Shown here piece after piece: positions 27,355 through 35,047 of a DNA stretch of 64,000 bases. The notes under the pieces were generated by a model, which made no database searches, was not told the DNA's origin, and saw only the letters and a list, made by a program, of their open reading frames with translations. The translations under genes were made by a program, and so were the position numbers. This DNA is from Synechococcus sp. KORDI-100 (lineage in GTDB: Bacteria; Cyanobacteriota; Cyanobacteriia; PCC-6307; Cyanobiaceae): positions 1,054,001 to 1,118,000 of the forward strand of contig NZ_CP006269.1 of assembly GCF_000737535.1 (NCBI RefSeq). The letters are read 5' to 3'. The number at the start of each line of letters is the position of its first letter. The stretch's first letter is position 1.

Positions 27355-27507
27355 TCAGATGCCAGGGTGCTCAAGCATCACAGTCGCAAGGTCTGACTCA
27401 GTCAGCTCAATGCATTCCTGCTCCTGAGATTCCGCAATGACCAGGGTGTCTGGAAGGCGGAAAGTTTTCTCAAGATCTGTTTTCGTGGCACCGAAGGGGT
27501 AGGTCAT
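27355..27507 (-). CDS. Small hypothetical protein
   Basis: 50 residues from ATG 27507 (MTYPFGATKTDLEKTFRLPD), acidic C-terminal half (ECIELTESDLATVMLEHPGI). The ATG comes immediately after the T run of a hairpin, with no Shine-Dalgarno sequence, so translation from this ATG is doubtful. No family recognised. Confidence 0.4.
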   Translation of the reverse strand: MTYPFGATKTDLEKTFRLPDTLVIAESQEQECIELTESDLATVMLEHPGI

Positions 27508-27600
27508 AAAAAAAGAGGGCTCATGCAGCCCCCGGGAACATTCCCCTAGGAACGCATTGATGACGCATCGCTGTGCCGCCGTTACATTACTCAACAAAGT
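27508..27600 (-). ncRNA. Candidate small RNA or attenuated leader
   Basis: Reading the minus strand from about 27600, two hairpins follow one another: GGGAA/TTCCC (27534-27545) and GGGCT, CATGC loop, AGCCC (27517-27531), the latter followed directly by seven T (27508-27514). That is a textbook intrinsic terminator with no minus-strand protein gene upstream of it. It could end a small RNA of roughly 80-110 nt or attenuate the 27355 gene. The 5' end is not defined. Confidence 0.4.
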
Positions 27601-27610
27601 TCTGTAACGG
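27579..27610 (+). promoter_or_regulatory. Inverted repeat at the ribosome binding site of the 27616 gene
   Basis: CCGTTACA (27579-27586) and TGTAACGG (27603-27610) form a perfect 8-bp inverted repeat with a 16-nt spacer. The right arm touches the GGGAG ribosome binding site. It could be an operator or an RNA hairpin that blocks translation. Confidence 0.5.
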
Positions 27611-27615
27611 GAGCC

Positions 27616-27717
27616 ATGGCCTTCACCACCCAAGACCTCCTCGTTCTGTTCGGCAGCTTTGGAATGGCCCTCTTTGCTCTGAATCTCTACAAGCTGACCA
27701 GACCCGCTCAGGGCTAA
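27616..27717 (+). CDS. 33-residue single-span membrane protein
   Basis: ATG 27616 with GGGAG just upstream. Sequence MAFTTQDLLVLFGSFGMALF continues as ALNLYKLTRPAQG. One membrane helix (about residues 8-24) and a short basic tail, the size and form of small photosystem, cytochrome b6f or NDH-1 subunits, but it does not match the PetN, PetM, PetG, PsbT or PsaM sequences I know, so no name is given. Confidence 0.65.
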   Translation: MAFTTQDLLVLFGSFGMALFALNLYKLTRPAQG

Positions 27718-27873: not shown

Positions 27874-28338
27874 TTACCGCTGAAACCAACCGGTGAGTGC
27901 CACCGCCAGGGCATCGGCGGCATCATCGGGTCGTGGAGGTTCCGACAGGTTGAGTTCTCGCATCACTGCGTCGAGCACTTCGTCTTTATCAGCATGTCCG
28001 AAGCCGGCCAGGGCCAACTTGATCTGCATCGGTGGGAATTCAACAACCGGCAGCTTGAATCGTGCCAGGGTCATCATGATCACTCCTCTCGCCTGCACCA
28101 CATTGATGGTGTTGCTTGAGCGGTAGAAAAAGAATTTTTCGACAGCAGCTTGTTGCGGCCCCCAACGGCGGATCAGCACACGCAGATCACGGGCGATTTC
28201 CACCATCCTTTCCCCATCCGAACATCCCGGTTCGGTTCGGATGATTCCGCAGTCGAGCATCTGTCGCCGACTCTCCGTCACGTCGATGACCCCGTAGCCC
28301 ACCCGGGCCAGACCGGGGTCGATGCCCAGGATTCGCAA
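27874..28338 (-). CDS. ruvC: Holliday junction resolvase RuvC
   Basis: 154 residues, TTG start ([20 protein letters not shown]). The catalytic acid in GIDPG, the later AVEKFFF glutamate, and the C-terminal acidic cluster [15 protein letters not shown] are conserved. Acts with RuvAB to resolve recombination junctions. It is the last gene of the minus-strand run, 6 bp after chlI. Confidence 0.95.
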
Positions 28339-34979: not shown

Positions 34980-35047
34980 AAAGCCCGAACGCGCCGGGCC
35001 GGGGGGTGTGAGGAGTGTGAGAGCGTCAGCTCGCACACATCTCACAC
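34980..35047 (-). ncRNA. yfr1: Regulatory RNA Yfr1
   Basis: The minus strand contains ACTCCTCACAC (complement of 35006-35016), the single-stranded core conserved in Yfr1. It is preceded by a stem-loop GTGTGCGAGC-TGAC-GCTCTCACAC (35038-35015) and followed by a terminator hairpin GCCCG/CGGGC (34983-34999) with three T. Placement between guaB3 and trxA is the known Yfr1 locus. Known role: a trans-acting RNA that pairs through the core motif to repress mRNAs, including porin-type genes. The 5' end is approximate. Confidence 0.9.

Follow-up and report, generated by a model that had tools for sequence, protein, structure and literature searches.

A strong transcription terminator that runs directly into the start codon of a small gene raises the question of what is terminated there and how the gene behind it is expressed. 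This arrangement lies on the minus strand of a 64 kb window (the whole stretch of DNA analyzed here) from the 2,789,000-base genome of Synechococcus sp. KORDI-100, whose relatives include Synechococcus sp. AG-670-A05. The interval in question, 27508-27615, separates the divergent genes P0001 and P0002 (Table 1), and an initial annotation had placed in it a small RNA that might act on either neighbor. We regard it as moderately probable that P0002 has its 5′ leader in this interval, in which a predicted two-way promoter would yield an RNA of ~70 nt that is stopped at the terminator, and that P0002 would be expressed by read-through.

Table 1. Coordinates of the features discussed (positions within the 64 kb window)
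Feature	Position	Strand	Remarks
P0002, 50-aa ORF	27355..27507	-	ATG abuts the T-run; assigned from pN/pS and conservation
Intrinsic terminator	27508..27533	-	GGGGGCTGCATGAGCCCTC-TTTTTTT; 7-bp stem, 5-nt loop, T7; hairpin conserved
Predicted ~70-nt leader RNA/sRNA	27508..27577	-	Ends at the terminator; conserved in 14 genus genomes
Lineage-specific hairpin	27534..27545	-	GGGGAAUGUUCCC, GGGG-AAUG-UUCC; in or beside a 12-nt insertion, directly before the terminator
Imperfect palindrome	27579..27610	.	CCGTTACA-N16-TGTAACGG; candidate two-way promoter/operator between P0001 and P0002
HLR1-like site	27581..27598	+	GTTACATTACTCAACAAA, differs from KTTACAWWNNKTTACAWW at 2 positions; covers both -10 hexamers; weak
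Candidate -10 of P0001	27583..27588	+	TACATT; implied start near 27595
Candidate -10 of minus-strand RNA	27584..27589	-	TAATGT; implied start near 27577
P0001, 33-aa single-helix membrane peptide gene	27616..27717	+	MAFTTQDLLVLFGSFGMALFALNLYKLTRPAQG; membrane helix judged by eye

The terminator and the small gene behind it

The existence of a strong minus-strand terminator, as claimed originally, was borne out. A scan of both strands with strict cut-offs (stem of at least 7 bp, at least five G-C pairs, and at least six T residues) returns three sites in the 64 kb, among them 27533-27508 with its 7-bp stem and T7, and no sites in 40 dinucleotide shuffles. This terminator is real and above chance. 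Among 14 short-type leaders, 12 retain an undamaged hairpin followed by T6 or T7. Four observations count against our model, the first three being that the hairpin is broken in G004, the T-run is interrupted in G014 (where P0002 also has an internal stop codon), and the hairpin before P0002 is weak at locus L038 of AG-670-A05. The latter organism has two copies with longer, different leaders, and its diverged copy at L037 has another stem sequence but still presents a hairpin and T5, followed after 6 nt by ATG. The fourth is a third P0002 copy in G019 (C105:1129-1275), which is excluded from the leader counts and has no recognizable terminator in front of it.

Across 12 leaders, the terminator helix is paired in 96.9% of cells and both leader helices in 97.2%, compared with 36-64% for slid partners. 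These pair counts, alignment A4, and the covariance model described below all exclude G000 and G005 because of a 12-nt insertion. The covariation check that had been proposed for the hairpins gave a result that is consistent with pairing but thin. A single pair (T-A, T-G, C-G) is altered on both sides, and because 82 of 500 shuffles equal this outcome, the covariation is compatible with the structure and does not prove it. Of the two hairpins initially described, the terminator hairpin is the one that is kept, whereas the additional hairpin beside it accompanies the 12-nt insertion. Of the 14 short-type leaders, only those of the window and G005 have this insertion, and thus the additional hairpin is not a conserved part of the element.

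It had also been stated that no upstream protein gene is present for the terminator to serve. This is true only in part, since ruvC, a gene named from its sequence, is co-oriented on the minus strand and has its stop at 27874, ~340 nt upstream of the terminator, with P0001 between them on the opposite strand. The site could therefore be viewed as the ordinary 3′ end of ruvC with a chance ORF behind it, but we judge this highly improbable. The cassette formed by P0001, the leader, and P0002 is ~360 bp long, and no neighbor is common to the window and the 14 relatives compared. All ORFs located between 12 and 46 kb of the window and encoding 60 aa or more were searched against the 14 cassette loci, and matches came only from ORFs that overlap the cassette. 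Eight of these loci span 10-12 kb and have the cassette roughly at their center, and the other six span 2-3.2 kb. Because relatives carry the cassette without the window neighbors, the terminator belongs to the cassette rather than to ruvC.

Equally contrary to the notion of a chance ORF, P0002, judged by its substitution pattern, is a real conserved gene under purifying selection. Over 15 loci its mean pN is 0.18, its mean pS is 0.52, and its median pN/pS is 0.35; the P0002 frame has the lowest pN and the highest pS of all six frames. The G014 copy, which contains a stop codon, was excluded from the codon test and from alignments A1 and A2. P0002 has homologues in 15 of the 34 genomes of the genus (including the interrupted G014 copy). 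A family-wide sample of 251 genomes contained 11 with a homologue, every one of them from the same genus. The protein has no match in Pfam above the cutoff, in NCBIfam, or among solved structures (PDB), and its AlphaFold2 model (pLDDT 73.7, pTM 0.27) is too poor for a fold search. One reading frame lies directly after P0002 in nine loci and presumably encodes a protein resembling dCTP deaminase. Phage records gave no match.

The T-run directly precedes the ATG of P0002 in 13 of 14 short-type relatives, and TTG takes the place of this codon in the pseudogenized G014. Because no promoter fits between the terminator and the ATG, P0002 mRNA would have to come from read-through. The terminator hairpin ends 7 nt before the AUG, and in the read-through RNA the region from -20 to -8 is mostly paired (mean unpaired probability of 0.24-0.56 at 16 loci), and therefore translation of P0002 may also be hindered. 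Attenuation of the 27355 frame, one of the two functions first suggested for this interval, is thus supported by a T-run that sits flush with a conserved start codon, by the absence of room for another promoter, and by the persistence of this layout in relatives.

The predicted leader RNA

The order P0001, palindrome, leader of 63-76 nt, hairpin, T-run, and P0002 ATG (TTG in G014) is common to 14 genomes. A covariance model of the leader gives 14 strong matches in the 34 genus genomes (E<=6.1e-10), all of them at the cassette, and it found no free-standing copies of the RNA in these genomes. Among 32 weaker matches, 13 loci were inspected and look like ordinary terminators; another, G019:C22:15954, is the diverged leader itself. 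No Rfam model matches the leader at gathering threshold, with only unrelated matches at E>=1.2, and a literature search found no description of this leader or cassette. The sequence of the locus and the conservation of the terminator in relatives support the predicted transcript that had been proposed, a short minus-strand RNA that ends at this site.

The stability of this RNA is a separate matter. The interval 27508-27615 folds with an energy of -43.9 kcal/mol and a z score of -3.72, whereas the predicted transcript of ~69 nt alone has a z score of -1.42, a stability that is not unusual (15 loci folded, -2.95 to +0.91) and that counts against our model. The fold excess of the interval is therefore mostly due to the palindrome at 27579-27610, which is more likely to be promoter DNA than RNA. 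The minimum-energy folds predicted for 15 leaders contain competing 5′ hairpins, none of which consistently takes the 5′ arm of the terminator, and no antiterminator is evident on inspection of these folds.

A plain attenuated or weakly expressed leader, in which the terminator merely lowers P0002 expression and the short RNA is a functionless by-product, must be weighed, and we consider it a possible but rather doubtful account. It agrees with the confinement of all strong covariance-model matches to the cassette, with the lack of standalone copies, with the resemblance of the weaker loci to ordinary terminators, with the moderate structure of the 5′ stretch, and with a pairing to P0001 mRNA that is not unusual (see below). 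However, the unpaired sequence GTCGTTCC between the 5′ hairpin and the terminator is well kept among the short-type leaders, and GACGTTCC is found again in the diverged L037 leader. Such conservation goes beyond the needs of a passive leader.

Some relatives also carry GGAGG-N7-ATG in the leader, from which translation could run into the terminator, either as a leader peptide that causes attenuation or as an N-terminal extension of P0002. Several genomes have this motif, and four of the 14 short-type leaders join its frame to that of P0002. In the other 10, including that of the window, it is out of frame, stopped, or without an ATG, which excludes conservation of a leader peptide. Moreover, the ATG lies within the 5′ hairpin, which persists where ATG is replaced by CTG (G012 and L037). 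We therefore attach very little probability to translation of the leader.

A candidate two-way promoter

The read-through model that we favor needs a start site for the leader RNA, and the palindrome between P0001 and P0002, which is conserved in the cassette relatives, is the candidate region. Within it, the sequence TACATTA (27583-27589) provides -10-like hexamers on both strands that have bases in common. The plus-strand form, TAnnnT at the -10 position of P0001, is present at 16 of 16 P0001 loci that are linked to P0002. The minus-strand form (TAATGT or TATTGT) is likewise found at 16 of 16 linked loci, at one of eight loci that lack P0002 and have a GTTACA-type element, and at none of 12 other P0001 loci. 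This comparison leaves out nine P0001 matches without a locus, and a fixed pattern decided the class of two loci that lack P0002 but have related elements (L108 included); classification by eye gives 1/9 rather than 1/8. The difference between 16/16 and 1/8 corresponds to a Fisher p of 2.3e-5 when kinship is ignored. The association of this hexamer with the presence of P0002 is the best available hint of a real minus-strand start. Counting against our model, a generic sigma-70 scan detected no promoter in the cassette, which has -10-like hexamers and no -35 hexamer.

Start sites placed 7 bp from the two hexamers would be 18 bp apart. According to Warman and Grainger (PMC12825309), this is the commonest start-to-start distance at bidirectional promoters, and the overlapping -10 hexamers of the cassette are a further likeness to the promoters described there. 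In the cassette, by contrast, the starts are predictions, and the hexamers are surrounded by a far longer palindrome that may serve as an operator. Its core, GTTACA...TGTAAC, has a single occurrence in the genome, and the palindrome was consequently rejected as a regulon motif.

The sequence over both -10 hexamers also resembles HLR1 (consensus KTTACAWWNNKTTACAWW), the site to which RpaB binds at high-light genes. With at most two mismatches, this pattern occurs twice in the window versus 0.08 expected. Across the genome it occurs 19 times, compared with 22 for the reversed control, and because it is no commoner than this control, light control of the cassette promoter is a guess. Examples of HLR1 and their positions within core promoters are given in PMC6331805.

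The P0001 peptide gene

With a threshold of E<=0.001, 24 of the 34 genomes of the genus contain a P0001 homologue, and the peptide has neither a Pfam nor an NCBIfam match. A short one-helix peptide that is encoded divergently from a small RNA recalls type I toxin-antitoxin systems, in which case the leader would be an antisense or trans-acting regulator of the 27616 gene; the initial annotation had suggested that the RNA might regulate this gene. G019, in which P0002 is present three times and P0001 twice (E<=0.001), with some of these copies in tandem, also fits such a system. However, the starts predicted at ~27577 for the minus strand and ~27595 for P0001 diverge, and the predicted transcripts do not overlap. 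Furthermore, when whole-length duplexes were calculated with mononucleotide shuffles as the control, the duplex of the window leader with P0001 mRNA was reached by 240 of 300 shuffled leaders, which is unlike the complementarity of type I systems. Pairing is inconsistent across 16 loci, the strongest case being L010, whose value 5 of 100 shuffled leaders attain. Many loci, in addition, have a P0001 homologue but lack P0002 or the leader. Given this lack of overlap and of any unusual complementarity between the predicted transcripts, antisense control of P0001 is not supported, and we consider a toxin-antitoxin-like role for the leader very unlikely.

Several other observations concern the surroundings of P0001 homologues. 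At L110 (G029) and L114 (G018), homologues without P0002 have small Chloroa_b-bind (Hli-like) genes (PF00504, E 5-7e-5) next to them on their upstream side, a proximity that hints at a role for the peptide family in light stress. At L112, L045, L113, L114, L044, and L048, a P0001-like ORF follows a single-helix ORF of 40-43 aa (MTDYSGAIFALIAITSVLTAAVVFVLAQPTDLPVIKK-type), and at L115, L043, L116, and L119, P0001 paralogues diverge from an ORF of 67-69 aa (MSIDARCQEQRSAADRMF-DFKYTRPG...); the one member of each group that was scanned has no Pfam match. The latter four loci again have CGTTACATT, or a one-base variant of it, upstream. In AG-670-A05, P0001/P0002 units are arranged in tandem (L038:812-1365 and 1852-2377), and there an ATGA overlap joins P0001 to another small membrane ORF.

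Relation to known systems and proposed function

The layout can be read either as an actuaton or simply as an attenuated leader. Actuatons, as defined by Kopf et al. 2015 (PMC5386190), are abundant sRNAs that double as the 5′ part of an mRNA without a start site of its own, with examples from Synechocystis sp. PCC 6803 and 6714 that include Yfr2b/c, CsiR1, and SyR9. The cassette resembles them in the order of its predicted promoter, its predicted short RNA with a terminator, and a sense gene directly downstream, and in being found at different places. In actuatons the downstream mRNA is made by read-through, as is predicted here for P0002. Unlike actuatons, the cassette has a terminator hairpin that abuts the start codon, a downstream gene that stays with its leader from site to site and is not exchanged for another, and a promoter that apparently also serves the divergently oriented peptide gene. 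A terminator between promoter and ATG is likewise found in transcription attenuators and riboswitch leaders, but the cassette leader has no Rfam match, and its predicted folds contain neither an antiterminator nor a ligand-binding core.

Marine cyanobacteria, the group to which this organism belongs, also have the short, structured RNAs Yfr1, Yfr2, and Yfr103. In contrast to these, the leader matches no Rfam model, and Yfr1 is located elsewhere in the window (34980-35036, minus strand, 65.1 bits). Yfr103 is longer, at 290-328 nt, and has a palindrome upstream (PMC5069720); this feature is shared by the cassette, whose own palindrome occurs once in the genome. The cassette is a fresh example of an arrangement that is already known in cyanobacteria.

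Comparison of the genomes establishes a conserved terminator, an ORF that starts at the T-run, -10-like hexamers tied to P0002, and a cassette with differing neighbors. Building on these features, the read-through model holds that a two-way promoter in the palindrome would start P0001 mRNA rightwards and the leader RNA leftwards. Most leader transcripts would probably stop at the terminator as an RNA of ~70 nt, whereas polymerases that fail to stop at 27508 would produce P0002 mRNA. The terminator hairpin should then hinder ribosome loading on this mRNA, such that P0002 would be made either weakly or under conditions that relieve termination. We infer in this model that the promoters and the terminator work, that the short RNA is stable and accumulates, and that read-through is regulated. 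A more ambitious proposal, which we consider unlikely, is that the ~360-bp unit is a self-contained cassette, present at different chromosomal sites of marine Synechococcus, with one two-way promoter, possibly light-controlled, and three products, namely a membrane peptide, a trans-acting RNA of ~70 nt, and a gated 50-aa protein. If this proposal were true, the terminator would double as an on/off gate and a ribosome block for the 50-aa protein.

If the read-through model is confirmed, ecologically important cyanobacteria would possess a compact and well-conserved unit of read-through RNA and protein, and test-ready coordinates would be in hand for two small genes that match neither Pfam nor NCBIfam families. 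The cassette would then also offer a natural test of whether terminators at start codons serve as regulated gates.
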